This document shows, one piece after another, positions 22,947 to 31,118 of a DNA stretch of 64,000 bases. A model generated the notes under the pieces. That model ran no database searches, was not told the origin of the DNA, and worked only from the letters and a program-made list of their open reading frames with translations. The stretch spans positions 248,001 through 312,000 of the forward strand of contig NZ_JALLPO010000002.1 in NCBI RefSeq assembly GCF_023276435.1, written 5' to 3'. Within the stretch, counting starts at the first letter, position 1, and each line of letters begins with the position of its first letter. The position numbers were made by a program, and so were the translations under genes. Origin of the DNA: Sphaerisporangium perillae. Lineage in GTDB: Bacteria; Actinomycetota; Actinomycetes; Streptosporangiales; Streptosporangiaceae.

Positions 22947-23222
22947 TCACCCGGCGCTGTCGTCTGCTTCCTCGGCCATTTCGGTCAGGATGTTGGCGGC
23001 GTCTTGGTTGCCGCCGCTGGCAAGGCGGCGCATCTCGCCAACGTCGCCTCGTTCTTGCGCCAGCTCGACGAGCTGATCGGCGGCGTCTTTGCTGCCCGCG
23101 TCGGCGAGGCGGCGTAGCTCTTCCATGTCGCCGTGCTCGGCTGCGAGTTCGACGAGCTGGCCGATAGCGTCTGGGTCGCTGTCCGCAATCCCGAGCATGG
23201 CCAGGTGATCATTGCGGTTCAT
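22947..23222 (-). CDS. Short helical-repeat protein
   Basis: A 91-residue acidic protein made of two and a half copies of a helical repeat: QLVELAAEHGDMEELRRLADAG, QLVELAQERGDVGEMRRLASGG, and a last partial NILTEMAEEAD. Such HEAT/Sel1-like repeats are frequent in actinobacterial accessory regions and usually mediate protein contacts. ATG at 23222 overlaps the stop of the truncated hydrolase (ATGA), so both were one operon. Function unknown. Confidence 0.65.
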   Translation of the reverse strand: MNRNDHLAMLGIADSDPDAIGQLVELAAEHGDMEELRRLADAGSKDAADQLVELAQERGDVGEMRRLASGGNQDAANILTEMAEEADDSAG

Positions 23223-23569
23223 GCCGCACCCCTTGCCGCTTCTTCTTTGTCGGCCGTCGGCTGGTTGCTGCTGAGCAGGTCTGCGATCGCGTCTCGCACT
23301 GCCTGTTCGCCGCGCAGGTGGATCGTGACATGGCCGGCTTCGACTGGCCGGACTTCTCCTCGGGGTACTGAGTTGGCGAAGTCGGTGTAGAGCCGGAACT
23401 TGGCTTCGATTTCCTCCTGCAGTAGGGCCTCTGGGATGCCTTGGGAGACAACCGCTTTGAACGGGTCGACCTTGGTGGAGGAAAGGATGAGGAGCGGGAC
23501 GTCGGGCAAGGGGCCGGCTGCGAGTGCAGGCAGGCGTCCCGGTCGATCCGATCGTGGGACGGCCGTCAA
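23219..23569 (-). pseudogene. Alpha/beta hydrolase, C-terminal fragment
   Basis: About 95 recognisable residues remain: LPDVPLLILSSTKVDPFKA is the strand before the acid residue, and EAGHVTIHLRGEQAVRDAIADLL contains the catalytic histidine and last helix of an alpha/beta hydrolase. The oxyanion hole, nucleophile elbow and the first 150 or so residues are absent, and the possible start at 23569 has no signal for the fold. The break lies ten bases beyond the end of the WD40 gene, so a deletion probably fused this remnant to that locus. Confidence 0.7.
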
Positions 23570-23578
23570 GGGCGGACT

Positions 23579-26500
23579 TCAGCGCGGGCAGCGCAGATCC
23601 GATGGGGCCGAGGTGCTCATGTACTGCCGCCACTGGGCGGCGGTGATGTCACGCCCGGCGGAATCGCACGCGGTACGCAGCCAGGCGTCGTGGTCGATCT
23701 GCCACTCGGCCACCACGCCCACGCCGGCGAGCCCGGCCGCCTCGGTGGCGGTGACCAGTTTCTTGCCGTCGGCCGAGAACTCCAGGCCGATGGAGTTGGG
23801 TTTGAGGCCCTTGGGCACAGGAAGCGTGCCGAGCTGATATCCAGAGGGGTAGTCGAAGAGCTTGGCGGTGCCCTCGGAGTCCGTTTCGGCGAACGTGCCG
23901 GCGCCGTTGACGACGGGACCGGTGACGCTGTCGCTCAGCCCGCGCAGGGTGCCGACGCGCGTGCTGCCAGGAGAGTTCCAGACCTCCAGCGTGCCGTCGC
24001 GCCGCTGGATCAGCAGCCTGTCCTCGACGAAGGCGACACCGGTCGCCTCGTCACCTCCGATCGCCCTGATGTGCCCGGTGGTGATGTCGATGACGCTGAC
24101 CTTGCCGCCATCGGGGTCGATGACGGCGGCGTGCGCCGTTCCGGCGTCCACGGCCGCGTAGCCCTGTGGCAGTGACGACGTCCCGCCCGAGACCGGGGCC
24201 ATGTCCGCGGGGCCTGGCACTCTCCGCAGGATCTTCCCCGTCGTCGGGTCCCTGATGGTCACGGTGCCGGAACCGGCCACCGCCACGACCCGCCGGCCGT
24301 CGGGGGTCAGCCGCAGCAGCGTCGGCGGGTCGTTCAGGTGCGGCGGATCGACCGGTGCGGGCCACGAGCCGACCGTGGGGAGCCCGGGCGCGAGGGCGCG
24401 GATCCGGGCGCTCCCATCCTGAGTGCCGACCAGGATGATCTTCGTGCCGTCGGCCGTCCACAGCGGGGGGCTGTAGACGTCCTGAAGGATCGGCGACGCC
24501 CGCTCCGTCTGGCGGTTGGTGATCCCCGAGCCGAGTTCCTGCACGTCCAGGGTGAGGCCGTCGCCGTCCACGAGGACGACGTGGCGCCCGCCGGGCTGGA
24601 GTCCGATCCGGGGCCCCGGACAGGCGTTGCAGGAATCGGGGATCAACGCGTCCGAGGCGGTGCCGATGCGGGAGATCTGGCCGAGATCCCAGAGGGTCAG
24701 CATGCCGCCGGACGCCGAGACCAGCCGGTCGCCGTCCGTGCCCAGAAAGGCGACGCTGCCGGCGGTGACCGGCCCCGCCCCGGTGAGCACGGTGGGTGCC
24801 TCCCGCTTCTCTTTCGGCGGGGTGCTCCTGGAGACGTAGATCATGGTGTTGGCGGCCTGTGCCGCACGTGAGCCGTCGGCGCTGAGCGCCAGCGCCACCG
24901 GATTCGCGCCCCGGGTTTCGGCGACGAGGCCGAACGCGTCGAGGTCGGGCGAGCCGCTGGTGCGCCACAGCGGCAACCAGGTGTCGGCGTTGGTGTAGGT
25001 GACGTATCGGCCGTCCGCCGAGAGTGCCGAGGCCCAGTTGTGGATCCCGAACCCGATCGTGCTGCCTGCGATGCGCTTCAGCTCCGGTGTGGACAGGCGC
25101 ACCCAGGTGCCGTAAGCCCCGTCGAGCAGCACGATGTGCCCGTCGTCGGCGAATGAGACGCGCTCGGGAGTGCTGCCCATGTCCTTCAAGGGGACATGCC
25201 GGGTACGGCCGCTGGTCAGGTCCAGGAGCGAGAGTCCGGATGTCAGGTTCTCCTCGTCCTCGGTGGACACGGCGACGAACCGTCCGGACGGAGAGACGGC
25301 CACGGCCGTGGGCGGATGTCCGGCCGGGAGGCCGAGTGAGGCGACAGGCCGTGTGGCGGACCAGATCAGCACGGTCCTGTCGTCGATGGCCGCCCCGGTT
25401 CCGCCGTCCGTGTCGGTCGCGATCATCCGCACGGCGCCGTGGAGCTTGACCGTCCGCTTCTTCTCGGCCTTCTTCAGGTCGCTGGAAAGCCTCCACATCA
25501 CGACATTTCCGTCTTTGGTCCCCGCTGCGACGGTCTGCCCGTCACCGGAGGCCGCGGTCGCCGAGATCGCGCCCCCCGCCTGGAGGCTCCGCACCAGGTG
25601 AGGGCTGGCCGACACCGCCTGGAACAGGGCGGCCCGGGTCTGCGGCGTCGGGTCATGGTGGTACGCCTGGGCCGCGAACAGCTGTGCCAGGCCGGCGTCG
25701 CTGTTCAACAAGGTGGTGGCGACATCCGCGAGCTTGGCCGCCGTGTGCCTCCGGGCGGTGGCGTCGGCCTGGACCTTCGAGACGACCATGCCGGTGGTCG
25801 TGGCGACGGCGAGCACCGCGGCGGCGGTGACCAGACGACCGGTACGCCACTGCCGGGCGTACCGGTCGGCCTGCCGCAGGGTCGTGGCGAACTTGACCGT
25901 GGCGGGCGGATGGGAGATGTCCGCCCGGTTCTCCTCAGGGGCGATGAGCCGCCAGCGCTTCCTGCGTGCCACCTGCAGCTTGGCGCCGAGCCCGCTGACG
26001 TGCCGTAGACGCGCGCCTTCGTCGAGGCGACCGGTCACGGCGGTCGTGGGCCGCAGGCCGTACACGACTCCGCGCAGCCCGGCCACGCTGGGGCGGCGCG
26101 AGACGGGATGGCGGAACAACTCGCGCAGACCCAGGGCGAAGGCCGCGCCGAGCGAGCCGCCGCTGATCCGCAGGGCGGGTGAGGGGCGGTCGGACAGCAC
26201 GATCCGCCAGAGCACACATCTGCCCTTGTCCACCCAAGGGGAGGCCTGCCAGGCATGGGAGAGCGACGCCGCGAAGGAATGTCCGCCGCTGGACGCCCCG
26301 GCCATCGCCTGTGGGTCCGGGAACAGGCCCACCGGCCCCGCCGGGAACTCCCGGAGCTCCAGCACGCCCGCGGTGCCGTCTTCCTGGCCGGTGTCGCCGT
26401 GATCGGCCCGGTCGAAGACGACGGACACCCGGACGACGGGCCGCTTGCGCCGCTCCGCGCCCGCCAGCAGCAGCGCGGTGAGGCCGACCATGACCTGTGC

Positions 26501-27025
26501 CGGACCGCTCGCCGTGTCGAGCAGGGAGCCGAGCCGGAGCGCGACCCGTTCCGGGGCGCCGGGCACCGCTCTGCCCGGCAACGCGAAATCGCCGAGCGGC
26601 GGACCGGAAGGCAGCAGCCTGCTCTCGTCCCACGCCTCGGCCGCCGGCCTCAGGGCTTCCAGGTGTTCCCGGCATGGGCTGAAAGGGCAGCCGAGAGCTC
26701 TGGCCACCAGGTATGCGGGGTCGGCTGGATTGCGCCCGGCCGGGCCGTCGTCGGGGGCGTTCTTGTTGATCCAGCTCCGCCAGCGCTCGGCCTGGCTCTG
26801 GAAGAGCCAGCCGGGATCCTCGCGTACGGCCTCCTGGCAGCACTTCCACCAGAGCTGTTCCCGGCCGATCAACCGGTCGAGGAGGGCCCCGCCGCTTGCT
26901 CCGCGCCGGGTCGCCAGGTCGCCGAACCGTTCTTCCAGCGCGGTTCTGTGCGAAAGCCGCCTCCGCCCGGGCTCGGGCCCTCTGCCTGGCGTGCGGGGAC
27001 CGCCATCGCCGCCGGGGACGGTCAC
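23579..27025 (-). CDS. Lon-type protease-like domain, transmembrane helix and WD40-like propeller
   Basis: A 1148-residue protein; GTG at 27025 overlaps the previous stop (GTGA). Residues 30-130 are helical with Trp/Cys-rich parts (EQLWWKCCQEAV, LGCPFSPCREHL). Residues about 150-370 match the Lon (S16) protease fold: ISGGSLGAAFALGL around Ser291 corresponds to the serine motif, TGRLDEGARLRHVSGLGAKL around Lys349 to the lysine motif, and LIAPEENRADI to the strand after it. Residues 398-416 form one transmembrane helix, followed by an ALxxxLxxQAYxxxPTxQTRxxLF-like segment common before propellers. About 470-1115 are WD40-like blades. No AAA+ domain is present. A membrane-tethered sensor-protease is inferred; the similarity was judged by eye. 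Confidence 0.72.
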   Translation of the reverse strand: MTVPGGDGGPRTPGRGPEPGRRRLSHRTALEERFGDLATRRGASGGALLDRLIGREQLWWKCCQEAVREDPGWLFQSQAERWRSWINKNAPDDGPAGRNPADPAYLVARALGCPFSPCREHLEALRPAAEAWDESRLLPSGPPLGDFALPGRAVPGAPERVALRLGSLLDTASGPAQVMVGLTALLLAGAERRKRPVVRVSVVFDRADHGDTGQEDGTAGVLELREFPAGPVGLFPDPQAMAGASSGGHSFAASLSHAWQASPWVDKGRCVLWRIVLSDRPSPALRISGGSLGAAFALGLRELFRHPVSRRPSVAGLRGVVYGLRPTTAVTGRLDEGARLRHVSGLGAKLQVARRKRWRLIAPEENRADISHPPATVKFATTLRQADRYARQWRTGRLVTAAAVLAVATTTGMVVSKVQADATARRHTAAKLADVATTLLNSDAGLAQLFAAQAYHHDPTPQTRAALFQAVSASPHLVRSLQAGGAISATAASGDGQTVAAGTKDGNVVMWRLSSDLKKAEKKRTVKLHGAVRMIATDTDGGTGAAIDDRTVLIWSATRPVASLGLPAGHPPTAVAVSPSGRFVAVSTEDEENLTSGLSLLDLTSGRTRHVPLKDMGSTPERVSFADDGHIVLLDGAYGTWVRLSTPELKRIAGSTIGFGIHNWASALSADGRYVTYTNADTWLPLWRTSGSPDLDAFGLVAETRGANPVALALSADGSRAAQAANTMIYVSRSTPPKEKREAPTVLTGAGPVTAGSVAFLGTDGDRLVSASGGMLTLWDLGQISRIGTASDALIPDSCNACPGPRIGLQPGGRHVVLVDGDGLTLDVQELGSGITNRQTERASPILQDVYSPPLWTADGTKIILVGTQDGSARIRALAPGLPTVGSWPAPVDPPHLNDPPTLLRLTPDGRRVVAVAGSGTVTIRDPTTGKILRRVPGPADMAPVSGGTSSLPQGYAAVDAGTAHAAVIDPDGGKVSVIDITTGHIRAIGGDEATGVAFVEDRLLIQRRDGTLEVWNSPGSTRVGTLRGLSDSVTGPVVNGAGTFAETDSEGTAKLFDYPSGYQLGTLPVPKGLKPNSIGLEFSADGKKLVTATEAAGLAGVGVVAEWQIDHDAWLRTACDSAGRDITAAQWRQYMSTSAPSDLRCPR

Positions 27026-27744
27026 CGCAGGGCGCCGTCGATCGCTCGCCTCAGGTCGTCCGAGACGAGGTCGCGCACCTGGCGCCAGGCATCGCGAGTG
27101 GCCTCGTTGAGGGCGGCGCCGGCGGACGTGGCCACCGTGGCCGGCTCCCACGCCGCCGTGCCGTCCACGACCATGGGAACCGAGGCCTCCCAGCCGGTGC
27201 CGCCGTCGAATCCGGGAAGCGCGATCTGCGCCGTGGCAGGGCCTATGTCCTGCCTCGCCATCGGGACCAGCAGCTCTCGCTCGCCGCCGGCCTGGCGGTA
27301 GCGCACGGAGATCACGGCGGGCAGCTCGTCGAAGTCCCGCAGCACCACCTCCAGCGTATGGTCCGCCCCGGCCGCGTCACGGCGGCGGAGGAAGAACTCG
27401 GTCCGGCCGTCCGGTGACGCCGCCTCGGCGGCGACGGACTCGTCGTCCGCGGCGAGCAGCCCGGCCGGTTCCGTGAGCGCCGGAAGCGAGAACCACCGGG
27501 CGGCCGGGTGGCCGGTGGCGGGCTCGGTACGGGCCGGGCGCGGTGACCGTGGCGCGGCAACGGCGCGAACGTCCCGGGCGGTGGCCCCCTCCGGTCGTAT
27601 CGGCAGGTCGACCCCGATGAGGGAGGCCCAGTAGCGCTGCCCGAAGGTGTACCCGTGCCGCCCGCGGCCTGCGGGCGACGCGTCGCGGGGCGGGCCGGAG
27701 TCCGTCAGCGAACTCCAGTAGCGGCGGAGGAAGGAGGCGCTCAT
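27022..27744 (-). CDS. Protein with duplicated YW-motif, partner of the Lon/WD40 protein
   Basis: A 240-residue protein of no family I can name. The N-terminus has two related short motifs, LRRYWSSLTDSGPP (residues 6-19) and GQRYWASLIGVDLP (35-48), which look like copies of a linear docking motif. The remainder is a beta-rich domain (TEFFLRRRDAAGADHTLEVVLRDF, AVISVRYRQAGGERELLVPM), ending in a helix (LNEATRDAWRQVRDLVSDDLRRAI). ATG at 27744 overlaps the upstream stop (ATGA) and its stop overlaps the GTG of the 1148-residue protein. Strict coupling suggests one complex with the protease-like protein. Confidence 0.65.
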   Translation of the reverse strand: MSASFLRRYWSSLTDSGPPRDASPAGRGRHGYTFGQRYWASLIGVDLPIRPEGATARDVRAVAAPRSPRPARTEPATGHPAARWFSLPALTEPAGLLAADDESVAAEAASPDGRTEFFLRRRDAAGADHTLEVVLRDFDELPAVISVRYRQAGGERELLVPMARQDIGPATAQIALPGFDGGTGWEASVPMVVDGTAAWEPATVATSAGAALNEATRDAWRQVRDLVSDDLRRAIDGALR

Positions 27745-28100
27745 TCGGGCCCCTCGACGTTCTGCGGGCCACCGTCCTTGCCGGAGCGTTGTGCCGCCGC
27801 CTTGCCGAAGGTCGTGAGCAGGGCCGGCGCCGCGGCGCCCACCGCGACGGCCGCGTAGGAGCCGGTGATCTGGCTGTGCAGCAGGGCGCCCGCCGCGCAT
27901 CCCAGCGCCGCGCGGGTGAGGGCGACCGCCGTATCGGCCGCGGGGTCGATGAATTCGCCGATGCGGGGCCGGCGTTTCCTCTTTGTCCCTGCCGTGTGGC
28001 GCGCGTCCCGCCAGGCGCTCAGGTGGTTCCACAATGCGACGGCTTCCACGATCAATCCGCCGATGGCTCCGTATCCCATCGCGACGGACCAAGACAGCAT
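27741..28100 (-). CDS. Small membrane protein, first gene of the Lon/WD40 operon
   Basis: A 119-residue protein with a hydrophobic N-terminal segment (SVAMGYGAIGGLIVEAVALW) and a long hydrophobic stretch near the C-terminus (AALGCAAGALLHSQITGSY into AAVAVGAAAPALL), joined by a basic loop (ARHTAGTKRKRRPR). ATG at 28100 is preceded by GGGAGAA; a start at 28118 would add six residues. The stop overlaps the next ATG. It likely provides the membrane platform of the three-gene system. The 197 bases upstream, to 28297, must hold the promoter, but no clear boxes were seen. Confidence 0.65.
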   Translation of the reverse strand: MLSWSVAMGYGAIGGLIVEAVALWNHLSAWRDARHTAGTKRKRRPRIGEFIDPAADTAVALTRAALGCAAGALLHSQITGSYAAVAVGAAAPALLTTFGKAAAQRSGKDGGPQNVEGPE

Positions 28101-28297: not shown

Positions 28298-28762
28298 CTA
28301 CTTGCCCATGGCGCTCGCGAATTCCGCGCAGGTGTGCCGGCGCGTGTCCCAGGACAGCTTGACGCTGCGGATCCCGGGGACGGCGGTGCCGGTGCAGACC
28401 AGCTGGGCGAGCGCGAGCCCTCGCGTGTCCGGCTTCCCCCAAAGGGACAAGACGTCGCCCTCCCGGCTGATCACCACCTCGTTCGGTTCCACCTGGGTGC
28501 TGAGGCCGCGCGCCCGCTCGACCTCGGTCGGCCCGTCCAGCAGCTGCTGCATCGAGTACTCCGGCACGTTGGGCAGCCCCGGCCGGGTGGCCTGGACCAG
28601 TTCGCCGCCCTTGAGGAAGTAGACGACGTTGGTCTGTGACTTTGCGCGCGCGATGGGCGGGTCCCCGGCCACGGTGGCCGCCGTGGGCTGGATGCCGCAG
28701 CCCACGGCCAGCAGCAGCAGTGCGACCAGGCAGCCCTTCCGGCGCCGTGCGGGGCGCCTCAT
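28298..28762 (-). CDS. GerMN-like lipoprotein of a two-component cassette
   Basis: A 154-residue lipoprotein: basic RRPARRRKG, hydrophobic LVALLLLAVG and a GC lipobox near residue 22. The mature part has VYFLKGGELVQATRPG and MQQLLDGPTEVERARGLSTQV, the pattern of the GerMN domain that also occurs in LpqB. ATG at 28762 overlaps the stop of the sensor kinase gene (ATGA). In mycobacteria and relatives LpqB accompanies MtrAB and modulates the kinase; the same arrangement is found here in a short version without the propeller. Two cysteines at the C-terminus could form a disulfide. Confidence 0.78.
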   Translation of the reverse strand: MRRPARRRKGCLVALLLLAVGCGIQPTAATVAGDPPIARAKSQTNVVYFLKGGELVQATRPGLPNVPEYSMQQLLDGPTEVERARGLSTQVEPNEVVISREGDVLSLWGKPDTRGLALAQLVCTGTAVPGIRSVKLSWDTRRHTCAEFASAMGK

Positions 28763-30447
28763 GCGCTCTCTCCGAGCGGGAGCCAGACCGTGAACACGGC
28801 GCCTTCGGCCGGGTCGTTCAGCACCGCGACCTCGCCTCCGTGCAGCTCGACGTTGGCGCGGGCGATCGCCAGCCCGAGGCCGCTACCCTCGCTGCTGGTG
28901 CGGGCCCGGTCCAGCTTGACGAACCGGTCGAACACCAAGGGCAGCAGCCACCTCGGTATGCCGGGCCCATGGTCGGTCACGGTGAGCGTCAGTCCGGCCA
29001 CGCCCTGCCTCTCCTGTTCGGCGAAGCGCACCACCACGGGCGGCGCGCCGTGCTTGAGCGCGTTGCCCACCAGGTTCGCCAGGATCACGTCGAACCTCCG
29101 GGGGTCGAGGCGGGCCATCAGGCCGTCCGGCCCTTCGACCTCCACCCGGCCGGTCCAGCCGCGCGGGGCCAGGCACGCCGCCACCGCCCCGGCCACCTCG
29201 AGGTCCTCCAGCACGAGCGCGGCGGTGCCGGAGTCCAGCCGGCTGATCTCGATCAGATGCTCGACGAGGATCCGCAGCCGCCGGACACCCTCGGTGACCA
29301 GCGGCCCGGCGGTCTCGCGGTCGGCGGCCGAGACGCCGGGATCGGCGAGGGTGTCGGCGAGCGCGGTGATCGCGGTGAGCGGGGTGCGCAGCTCGTGGGA
29401 GACGTCGGCCACGAACCTGCGCGAGGACGCCTCCAGTGCCCGCAGCTCGGCGATGCCGCCCTCCAGTGCCCCGGCCGTCCGGTTGAACGTCCGCGCGAGG
29501 TCGGCGAGCTCGTCGTGGCCGATCACCTCGACGCGGGTGTCGAGTCTCCCGTCGCCGAGCGCGTAGGCGGCCCGTCCCAGCCTGCGTACCGGCAGCAGGA
29601 CGCCGCGGGCGGCCACGAGCGCGAAGACGATCGCGACGGCGAGGGTCACTCCGTTGGCGATCAGCAGGACCTGGGTGAGGGTGCGCAGGTCCTCGGCCTC
29701 GCGGGCCAGGCTGACGATGACAAAGCCCATGATCGGCGTCGGCCGCCCGGTCTGCCGCTCGGGCACCTCGGCGTACACCTGGGCCCCGACGAGCAGGAAG
29801 GGCGCGCCCCGGTGCTCCACCCGGCGCTGGACGGTGTTGCTCCTGGCCATCTGCGCGAAGTCGGGCGGGATGTCCACCCCGTACCGTGGGTCGAAGTCGG
29901 GGAAGAAGTAGATGCCGTCCTCCTGCACCTGGGCGAGCTTGACGTCGTAGCGGCCCTGGACGCTGAGCGCGGACTTCAATTGCTGCAGATACTCGACGCT
30001 GAGGTTGCTGTAGTTGGCGAACTTGGGCATGTCGGCGGACACCGTCCTGCCGATGGTGTTCTTGAACTCCCCGATCACGTTCGACTGGGTCCTGTCCAGC
30101 ATGGACCGCTGGACCAGGTAGTAGGCGACGACGGACGCCGCCAGCGACGACAGCACGGCCACCACGACGAAGCCGGTGATGAGCCGCAGGCGCAGGCCGA
30201 CCCGACGCGGGGAGAGCCTCGGCAGGCGGACCGGCGGGTCCTGCGGGGAGTCCTGCCCGTGCGGCGAGTCCTGCCCGTGCGGCGAGTCCTGCCCGTGCGG
30301 CGAGTCGTGCCCACGGGGCGCGCCCGTGCCGCGCCTCAAGCGGGCGCGCAGGGTCGCCGGCACCGCGGCCAGGGCCGGAGCGTACGCGCGCACGCTGGTC
30401 ACGGCCTTGCGTACAGGGCTCGCCAGGGTCTGCGGCAGCCGGATCAC
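28759..30447 (-). CDS. MtrB-like sensor histidine kinase
   Basis: A 562-residue kinase starting with GTG at 30447, overlapping the response-regulator stop (GTGA). The first 90 residues are cytoplasmic and contain three to four copies of a six-residue unit (SPHGQD). A transmembrane segment LITGFVVVAVLSSLAASVVAYYL, an extracellular sensor of about 180 residues and a second segment (LIANGVTLAVAIVFALVAA) follow. Then come HAMP, VADVSHELRTPLTAI with the phospho-histidine, the N-box NLVGNALKHG, DHGPGIP, and GSGLGLAIARANVELHGG. A four-base overlap links it to the lipoprotein, so the three proteins should act in one pathway, likely cell-envelope related. Confidence 0.92.
   Translation of the reverse strand: MIRLPQTLASPVRKAVTSVRAYAPALAAVPATLRARLRRGTGAPRGHDSPHGQDSPHGQDSPHGQDSPQDPPVRLPRLSPRRVGLRLRLITGFVVVAVLSSLAASVVAYYLVQRSMLDRTQSNVIGEFKNTIGRTVSADMPKFANYSNLSVEYLQQLKSALSVQGRYDVKLAQVQEDGIYFFPDFDPRYGVDIPPDFAQMARSNTVQRRVEHRGAPFLLVGAQVYAEVPERQTGRPTPIMGFVIVSLAREAEDLRTLTQVLLIANGVTLAVAIVFALVAARGVLLPVRRLGRAAYALGDGRLDTRVEVIGHDELADLARTFNRTAGALEGGIAELRALEASSRRFVADVSHELRTPLTAITALADTLADPGVSAADRETAGPLVTEGVRRLRILVEHLIEISRLDSGTAALVLEDLEVAGAVAACLAPRGWTGRVEVEGPDGLMARLDPRRFDVILANLVGNALKHGAPPVVVRFAEQERQGVAGLTLTVTDHGPGIPRWLLPLVFDRFVKLDRARTSSEGSGLGLAIARANVELHGGEVAVLNDPAEGAVFTVWLPLGESA
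30245..30304. repeat. 18-bp in-frame tandem repeat in the kinase gene
   Basis: A unit reading GAGTCCTGCCCGTGCGGC on the plus strand is repeated about three times, with degenerate partial copies at both ends. It codes for consecutive SPHGQD units in the cytoplasmic N-terminus of the sensor kinase. Each gain or loss keeps the frame. Confidence 0.9.
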
Positions 30448-31118
30448 GGTGTTACGAAGCGGTAGCCGAAGCCGCGCACGGTCTCGATGTACCCCGGCCG
30501 GGACGGCTCGTCGTCGATCTTGGCCCGGATGCGCTGCACGCAGGCGTCGACGATGCGCGAGTCCCCCGGGTAGGTGTGCTCCCACACGTCGGCGAGGAGC
30601 TGCTGGCGGGTCAGCGCCAGGCCGGGACGCCGGGTGAGGGCGAGCAGCAGGCGCAGCTCGGTCGGGGTGAGCCGGACGTCCTTGCCGCGCCGGGTCACCT
30701 TGAGCGCCCCCCGGTCGACGACCAGGTCTCCGTAGGTCGAGACGTCGCCGTGCGTGGTCTCCACCCGCCGCAGCACGGCGCGGATGCGGGCATCCAGGAC
30801 GCGCGGCTCGATCGGCTTGACGACGTAGTCGTCCGCCCCCGCCTCCAGGCCGAGCACGACGTCGAGGTCGTCGCCCCGCGCGGTCAGCAGGATGACCGGC
30901 AGGGTGTCCATGCGGCGGATCTTGCGGCAGACCTCGATGCCGTCGATGCCCGGCAGCATGACGTCGAGGAGGGCGATCTCCGGACGGCGGGCCCGGATGC
31001 ACTCGAGCCCCTCCTCGCCGCTCGTCCTGGCCGTCACGCTGTGCCCCTGCCGGGACAGGGCGAACTCCACCGACGCCCGGATGAGGGGGTCGTCCTCCAC
31101 GAAAACGATGCTTGCCAC
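30444..31118 (-). CDS. OmpR/PhoB-family response regulator
   Basis: A 224-residue regulator. The receiver has the acidic pair in VFVEDDPLIRAS, the phospho-acceptor in ALLDVMLPGIDG, LLTARGDD and the lysine in DDYVVKPIE. The DNA-binding winged helix has LTPTELRLLLALTRRPG, LTRQQLLADVWEH, RIVDACVQRIRAKI and YIETVRGFGYRF. I chose GTG at 31118; the longer frame to 31181 only adds 21 residues outside the domain. It is the first gene of the regulator-kinase-lipoprotein operon. The gap to the divergent gene at 31220 is about 100 bases. Confidence 0.93.
   Translation of the reverse strand: MASIVFVEDDPLIRASVEFALSRQGHSVTARTSGEEGLECIRARRPEIALLDVMLPGIDGIEVCRKIRRMDTLPVILLTARGDDLDVVLGLEAGADDYVVKPIEPRVLDARIRAVLRRVETTHGDVSTYGDLVVDRGALKVTRRGKDVRLTPTELRLLLALTRRPGLALTRQQLLADVWEHTYPGDSRIVDACVQRIRAKIDDEPSRPGYIETVRGFGYRFVTP

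Follow-up and report, generated by a model that had tools for sequence, protein, structure and literature searches.

The question raised by this locus is what a protease domain of the Lon type (S16) might do in a protein that carries a membrane helix and a WD40-type propeller in place of an AAA+ module. The protein is encoded by the third gene of an operon in Sphaerisporangium perillae (assembly GCF_023276435.1, contig NZ_JALLPO010000002.1, positions 248,001 to 312,000 of the forward strand); this stretch of 64,000 nucleotides is referred to as the window, and positions are counted from its first letter. The operon comprises three minus-strand genes (28100-23579), each overlapping its neighbour by 4 bases, as ATGA at 27744-27741 between genes 1 and 2 and as GTGA at 27025-27022 between genes 2 and 3. 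These coordinates, given in an initial annotation made from the sequence alone, have proved exact, and the same three boundaries have been returned by a codon-bias gene caller trained on homologues. The best explanation, to which we give an even chance, is that the gene 3 product would act as an outside-in receptor protease with the gene 2 product as its dedicated partner. What carries this reading has been computed directly, namely the S16 fold with its catalytic dyad, the membrane segment, the homology of the propeller half to proteins with TIR or nSTAND1 domains and the linkage of gene 2 to the S16 gene; the placement of the propeller outside the cell and the pairing of the gene 2 tail with gene 1 are suggested indirectly. 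The features concerned, all on the minus strand, are as follows.

28100..27741, minus strand: gene 1, strongly conserved small membrane protein of 119 residues, ATG start
27744..27022, minus strand: gene 2, partner protein of 240 residues, with an N-terminal basic-aromatic tail and a beta-domain
27595..27744, minus strand: gene 2 N-terminal tail, residues 1-50, with two copies of the RRYWSSL / QRYWASLxGxxLP motif, linked to gene 1
27025..27498, minus strand: gene 2 beta-domain and C-terminal helices, residues 83-240, the part that accompanies the S16 gene
27025..23579, minus strand: gene 3, 1148 residues, GTG start, in the order helical region, S16 domain, transmembrane helix, spacer, propeller
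26576..26893, minus strand: helical N-terminal region of gene 3, residues ~45-150, from the AlphaFold model and the alignment
25844..26440, minus strand: predicted S16 (Lon-type) protease domain, residues ~196-394, from profile, Pfam, AlphaFold/Foldseek/VIA and hhalign
26153..26155, minus strand: Ser291 codon, matching the serine in PKDGPSAG of Lon
25979..25981, minus strand: Lys349 codon, matching the lysine in GGLKEK/GGLKDK of Lon
25778..25834, minus strand: predicted transmembrane helix, residues ~398-416, with positive charge on the S16 side
25616..25753, minus strand: helical spacer, residues ~425-470, common to nSTAND1 relatives
23696..25600, minus strand: WD40-type propeller region, residues ~476-1110, from Pfam and homology
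23582..23683, minus strand: C-terminal motif with C1120 and C1146, both invariant in 22 of 22 related propellers

The first step is the S16 assignment. In the 1148 residues of gene 3, the initial annotation had seen a Lon-like domain with a Ser291/Lys349 pair, and both residues stand at these positions. When a profile of 25 relatives (A2) was compared with the PDB, the best match was E. coli Lon (1rr9, E 3.9e-7), followed by Yersinia Lon, 1xhk, mitochondrial LONP1 and others, with Lon, LonC or RadA making up 50 of the 53 rows. A structure prediction had been set beforehand as the test of the Lon-like fold: the AlphaFold model of residues 40-402 (predicted local distance difference test score, pLDDT, 86.2; predicted template modelling score, pTM, 0.88) has MtaLonC and E. 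coli Lon as its top Foldseek rows, and a second structural aligner places it on chain F of 1rr9 with Z 19.5 and a root-mean-square deviation of 2.3 Å over 164 residues. An hhalign comparison with 20 Lon sequences from public genomes (probability 98.5, E 3.9e-15) aligns Ser291 with the serine in PKDGPSAG and Lys349 with the lysine in GGLKDK/GGLKEK, which we take to be the catalytic pair of Lon. Both residues are invariant in all 32 aligned rows and in 25 of 25 once rows of more than 90% identity are removed; residues 158-400 contain just 13 invariant positions, these two among them. Their constancy, which was the second test set beforehand, holds down to about 29% identity among homologues. The 32 rows include the identical L010 and L031 and exclude the fragments L017, L033 and L044 as well as L011, L012, L013 and L015, which are second copies of genes already in the alignment.

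At E <= 1, Pfam Lon_C matches 23 of the 25 family members, the strongest at 2.3e-7, and the protein of locus L037 lies over the gathering cut-off with 28.0 bits; the window protein itself weighs on the other side, its 14.1 bits falling below the curated cut-off of 21.1 bits. A phylum-wide search with the S16 alignment matched 286 of 396 genomes, mostly in frames of Lon or PDZ-Lon size, a result that favours homology to Lon and cannot serve to count the propeller-fused S16 family. Taken together, an S16 fold over residues ~196-394 is predicted with near certainty. The limits first proposed, residues 140-380, are borne out as regards the presence of the fold and have to be redrawn as regards its span, residues ~45-150 forming a separate helical region in which W59 and C63 are invariant in 24 rows of the A3 alignment. 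Among the 21 Pfam families listed at E <= 1 for the 1190-residue frame of gene 3 there is no AAA+ family, in agreement with the view that the propeller stands in its place. The dyad and the fold predict a Lon-type Ser/Lys protease, whose proteolytic activity is putative. In the helical region, residues 50-96 (26738-26878) have a weak phmmer match to human F-box/WD proteins (best 6wnx, E 0.0042), and gene 3 also has a WD40 part; this relation was set aside as a single weak match in a helical stretch, probably due to chance.

The second step concerns the other half of the protein, for which Pfam is confident on the propeller only (WD40 E 1.6e-9, Beta-prop_THOC3 E 4.8e-18); the length of the region would fit two seven-bladed propellers. 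Used alone as a query, the propeller half finds full-length relatives without an S16 domain. In the 250 family genomes searched, the window's own protein set aside, 10 full-length propeller homologues are spread over 9 genomes. TIR_2 is the best Pfam family in the first 220 residues of nine of these ten (E 5e-13 to 8e-6), a result that holds for those residues alone at E <= 0.1 and includes two scores just under the gathering score. The tenth homologue bears nSTAND1 (E 4e-126), and a Nonomuraea record provides a second nSTAND1 case (E 5e-122) that is 32% identical to the window protein over residues 404-1147. Throughout spacer and propeller, identity to the TIR and nSTAND1 relatives is 31-36% over ~700 residues, with BLAST E values of 1e-68 to 1e-113, and these relatives have both C-terminal cysteines of gene 3. 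A tree built from 22 of these propellers gathers the 11 S16 proteins in a single group (100/99), the TIR and nSTAND1 proteins being intermixed with one another. Since homologous propeller halves carry different N-terminal domains, S16 and TIR/nSTAND1 modules have been exchanged at least once on this chassis; judged from these sequences, the Lon domain occupies an interchangeable slot on a shared transmembrane-propeller chassis. Weighing against this are the long-branch warnings carried by the tree (L128 with L007) and a scan of full-length proteins at E <= 1e-7, in which TIR_2 was found in only one of eight TIR proteins.

The sensor may also be exchanged within the S16 family. Five loci (L025, L026, L028, L031 and L032) encode S16 domains 51-54% identical to that of the window; four of them are unmatched at E 1e-3 by the window propeller as query, and L032 is matched at only 2.6e-4. 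Typical WD40 propellers are borne by L025, L026 and L031. Against an exchange of sensors, 36 of the 37 C-terminal parts fall into one single-linkage cluster at E 1e-15, and the differing propellers may represent fast-diverging WD40 repeats rather than true swaps. Two further observations concern this wider set of proteins. At L131:9014-12115 and L133:9555-12767, a TIR-propeller gene faces away from a second gene, whose first residues are likewise TIR-like by eye. The genome of the window also encodes, at L096:254-4534, a WD40 protein that has both nSTAND1 (E 1.9e-127) and BTAD domains and a propeller bearing no more than a distant resemblance to the gene 3 propeller (E 8e-7).

The third step is to ask what accompanies this receptor-like protein. 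Gene 2 relatives are recognised by profile in 25 of the 28 other S16 loci. Because the window and 14 of these loci supplied the rows of the profile itself, 11 of the 25 matches are independent (L005, L006, L008, L030, L034, L035, L037, L039, L041, L042 and L044); beyond the profile, L036 is joined by BLAST cluster only and L038 by iterated search only, and neither profile, cluster nor iterated search gives a gene 2 in L033, a fragment. Minus-strand matches that a first iterative search had produced in L035, L037, L039, L041 and L042 were dropped, as they overlapped real genes, and codon-bias gene calls then gave gene 2 relatives on the proper strand in these same loci. Gene 1, with 30 invariant columns in a 15-row alignment, has relatives in 17 of the 28 other S16 loci. 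No Pfam family is found for the window copy of gene 1, and other single members have only chance-level matches (E 0.34 and worse). Gene 2 has no convincing Pfam family either, the best being PH_17 in 3 of 15 members (E 0.0018 at best). The AlphaFold model of gene 2 has a pLDDT of 71.8, with ~85-97 from residue ~131 onward, and the tail, modelled with low confidence, is probably disordered. The model has no PDB match at E <= 0.001, its Foldseek rows being weak and mixed (best E 0.02), and the gene 2 profile retrieves only chance-like MHC rows (E 0.1 and worse).

The two parts of gene 2 have different distributions. In 295 family genomes its profile matched 14, seven through the beta-domain and seven through the N-terminal tail. 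All seven beta-domain genomes carry the S16 gene, six belonging to the nine-genome family set and the last being G233, identified by its contig as the genome of L042; the chance of all seven falling among the 10 S16 genomes is about 3e-12, kinship being ignored. Of the tail matches, six come from genomes in which the family search gave no S16 gene, and in the remaining one, G280, the S16 gene is 1.6 Mb away; the two tail matches that were checked (G074 and G031) both adjoin gene 1 relatives. The tail motif is present in 15 of 18 S16-linked gene 2 proteins, in 5 of 8 frames beside S16-less gene 1 relatives and in 0 of 9 divergent gene 2 relatives from loci without gene 1, by a crude pattern that misses L040, L043 and L087, where a tail can be made out by eye. 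The beta-domain thus seems to go with S16 and the tail with gene 1, as two separable links, and gene 1 with the tail looks like a separate, wider cassette. Related loci (L086-L093) hold gene 1 relatives without an S16 match, several of them with a related basic-aromatic tail in the next frame, and a CRISPR-like array with a period of 61 bases (L090:5614-6375) is found immediately upstream of one such S16-less cassette, an arrangement also met on the S16 plasmids.

The best reading of these patterns would be that gene 2 is a dedicated partner of the S16 receptor. Several points weigh against it: gene 1 is undetected in 11 of the 28 S16 loci, making the three-gene form less than universal; gene 2 is on the opposite strand in several divergent loci; and three S16 genomes (G152, G170 and G280) gave no beta-domain match in the 295-genome profile scan, a weak gene 2 match being present in L044, the contig of G170. 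As to what kind of partner, a substrate of the protease is conceivable by analogy with CalpL, at somewhat less than even chances, and gene 2 might just as well serve as an inhibitor or adaptor. The same receptor protease would then cut something else, whether a host protein, the receptor itself or, in some loci, the neighbouring caspase; this alternative, which we consider unlikely although it is a serious contender, draws on the adaptor-like pattern of the gene 2 relatives, in which a retained beta-domain is combined with wholly different N-terminal parts, and on the loci L036, L037 and L038, where caspase-like and hydrolase-like genes adjoin the S16 gene. The caspase is, however, confined to 3 of 28 loci, and the window offers no other obvious substrate.

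These three loci deserve description. Their caspase-like genes match Pfam C14 in L036 (E 1.4e-12) and L038 (E 1.2e-8), that of L037 having been assigned by BLAST cluster, and His and Cys motifs are seen by eye in all three; the alpha/beta-hydrolase-like genes form one cluster, of which the L036 copy is below the Pfam cut-off (E 6.5e-4), and the gene 2-like proteins have 610-687 residues. The S16, hydrolase-like, caspase-like and gene 2-like genes lie together at L036:5538-12943, L037:4922-12903 and L038:9563-18089, and a two-protease cascade is possible there. In the divergent loci L039, L041, L042 and L044 another membrane-type gene occurs, forming one cluster (DUF6313 E 3.7e-8 for L041).

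With gene 2 kept as the probable partner of a receptor protease, the fourth step is the purpose of the system, and here the distribution of the S16 gene comes into play. It is sporadic. In the genus the gene is found in its own genome only (11 genomes), in the family in 9 of 297 genomes, counting the own genome and one fragment (G170), and in the order in 11 of 345, the sets overlapping; the family counts come from single-sequence searches that miss remote members such as G233 (L042), which is absent from the nine. A one-pattern scan of species genomes gave 25 S16 loci, all actinobacterial by title. Six Streptomyces or Kitasatospora plasmids carry the gene, a seventh plasmid match being an nSTAND1 protein, and no relative was found in the viral contigs or phage records searched. 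Short or fragmented S16 genes occur at L030:9476-11191, L033:9983-10555 and L044:8909-10267, a pattern that fits genes often lost. Three plasmid loci (L005, L006 and L008) were examined, and in each the distance from gene 1 to cas3 is no more than 3 kb, casA being annotated as type I-E in L005. The two of them searched for repeats, L005 and L008, have an array with a period of 61 bases that stops ~150 bases short of gene 1. Because the plasmid S16 domains are 97-99% identical, this neighbourhood counts as one observation. All three window proteins are without a family in the PADLOC-DB 2.0.0 anti-phage models at E <= 1, and NCBIfam gives them only two weak propeller-type rows.

For the function we infer a role in defence or envelope signalling, as the initial annotation did. 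Defence gains indirect support from the TIR and nSTAND1 relatives, from the caspase and hydrolase neighbours of three loci and from the plasmid copies beside CRISPR-like arrays, and an immune rather than a housekeeping role is evenly poised. Envelope-stress or developmental signalling, in place of immunity, is a less probable account, about level with that of gene 2 as inhibitor or adaptor. It is favoured by a Vgb_lyase-type protein encoded directly downstream in 10 of 28 loci (one cluster), which has a lipoprotein-like start by eye and in L005 matches Pfam PF24684 at E 1.2e-44; this gene is absent at the window operon. It is also favoured by the position of the window operon between genes of two two-component systems, from which it is separated by two small frames and a Germane-domain gene. 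The sporadic presence, the TIR/nSTAND1 relatives, the caspase neighbours and the plasmid copies by cas3 and CRISPR-like arrays nevertheless fit conflict systems better. In the window, the upstream segment (28298-31118) encodes the Germane-domain protein (E 1.9e-4, just under the cut-off), a histidine kinase and a response regulator, and directly 3' of gene 3 (22947-23569) there are two small minus-strand frames without a convincing Pfam family.

The fifth step is the orientation of the receptor in the membrane. The single transmembrane helix and the WD40-like propeller seen in the initial annotation are recovered: the window protein has one hydrophobic segment, after the S16 domain, and no other above the cut-off, and the strongest such segment past the dyad begins 45-57 residues after the lysine in 31 of 32 rows. 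In 11 of the 32 rows some additional stretch also exceeds the hydrophobicity cut-off. Lysine plus arginine averages 5.0 in the 15 residues before the helix and 2.7 in the 15 after, being higher before it in 29 of 32 rows, equal in two and lower in one, L028, the row for which the segment search chose a wrong segment. In the window protein, the 723 residues of the propeller part contain four cysteines. Across the 22 related propellers compared, C1120 and C1146 never vary, C802 is present in 17 and C799 in 14; of these 22 propeller parts, each longer than 700 residues, 18 have exactly four cysteines. Disulfides are plausible because of the two invariant cysteines and the four-cysteine pattern. 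From the charge bias and the invariant cysteines, the propeller would lie outside the cell and the S16 domain inside, an orientation we regard as very probable. It has to be set against the facts that WD40 propellers are mostly cytosolic, that the charge rule is only a tendency, and that the two Actinoplanes-type rows (L040 and L043) have no charge bias. The reverse topology, in which the propeller would be a cytosolic scaffold and S16 would act outside on envelope or incoming proteins, appeals to that cytosolic habit of WD40 domains; it conflicts with the charge bias and the cysteine pattern, and TIR and nSTAND1, domains that are cytosolic, occupy the same side of the helix in the relatives, which makes it quite improbable. 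Weaker still is the idea of a non-proteolytic Lon fold serving as a scaffold, as in ComM or BrxL, whose structures match the same model (Z 17.6 and 17.3, respectively) and neither of which is known to have the Ser/Lys dyad, since in the 25 non-redundant homologues Ser and Lys are invariant even at the lowest identity.

With the propeller placed outside and the protease inside, a mechanism can be put together for the preferred receptor protease. Gene 3 would be a single-pass membrane receptor protease whose propeller, outside the membrane, may bind a ligand or report a lesion at the cell envelope. Binding would reorganise gene 3, most likely by clustering copies, and clustering would switch on the cytoplasmic Lon-type Ser/Lys protease without an ATPase in the same chain. 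Gene 1 would hold gene 2 at the membrane via the basic-aromatic tail, and the protease might then cleave gene 2, as CalpL cuts CalpT, passing the signal on to a stress or antiviral output. Activation by oligomerisation and a dedicated partner as substrate are proposed on the model of CalpL. CalpL itself is soluble. More broadly, and more tentatively than for the receptor protease as such, this would define a class of receptors whose propeller, outside the cell, has direct control of an ATPase-free Lon-type protease inside, which cuts gene 2 in an immune or stress response, with a sensor chassis common to TIR, nSTAND1 and S16 outputs and the sensor perhaps exchanged too. The AAA+-free immune Lon proteases met in the literature searched, CalpL and CARF-Lon, read nucleotide messengers. 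If the proposal is true, a membrane-spanning Lon would turn an outside event straight into proteolysis, like receptor-linked proteases in animals. The chassis common to TIR, nSTAND1 and S16 would amount to a natural experiment, with one sensor type and three outputs, and gene 2, without a recognisable fold, would be a candidate substrate.

It remains to compare the operon with known systems. E. coli Lon and the other ATP-dependent Lon proteases have the same protease fold and Ser/Lys dyad as gene 3; unlike LonA and LonB, gene 3 has no listed AAA+ family, is predicted to be tethered to the membrane and is fused to a propeller. BrxL of the BREX defence system shares the Lon-like fold and is an AAA+ factor according to PDB titles, whereas gene 3 is without AAA+. 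The TIR and nSTAND1 relatives have the homologous spacer and propeller behind a transmembrane helix; unlike gene 3, they bear TIR or nSTAND1 N-terminally, and no gene 1 or gene 2 match occurs among the genes shown beside L007 or among the up to three genes shown on each side of L127-L136. Peptidases are also found in the effector slot of the VMAP ternary/EACC1 conflict systems, in which EACC1 is a small membrane partner, as in the window operon, and the caspase of VMAP systems is reported to have an alpha/beta-hydrolase neighbour in every case (Kaur et al., 2020; PMC7159879), a pairing like that of L036-L038. Among the three window proteins there is no match to a vWA, MoxR, VMAP or EACC1 model (a gene 1 relative from another locus touches VMAP-M0 at E 0.34), and the word Lon is absent from the main text of PMC7159879. 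The nearest protease-propeller parallel met is mentioned in PMC10907252, where an S8 peptidase bearing WD40 repeats adjoins a STAND locus; among the papers listed by the literature searches, no title points to a Lon-propeller fusion. CalpL, the Lon-SAVED protein of the type III CRISPR system CalpL/T/S, has S16 with a C-terminal sensor and is activated by oligomerisation; it senses cA4 via SAVED and cuts the anti-sigma factor CalpT (PMC11417357). Like CalpL, gene 3 has S16 with a C-terminal sensor in place of AAA+, in a system of three components with a small partner protein; unlike CalpL, its sensor is a propeller behind a membrane helix, and no SAVED, CARF or sigma-factor Pfam family is found in the three window proteins at E <= 1. 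CARF-Lon is another sensor-fused Lon free of AAA+. Lon proteases joined to a sensor in place of AAA+ are already described, and a transmembrane, propeller-fused form was not found in the literature searched. What is new would be the combination, in which a sensor-fused, AAA+-free Lon is joined to a transmembrane propeller with exchangeable modules and has gene 2 as its marker partner.

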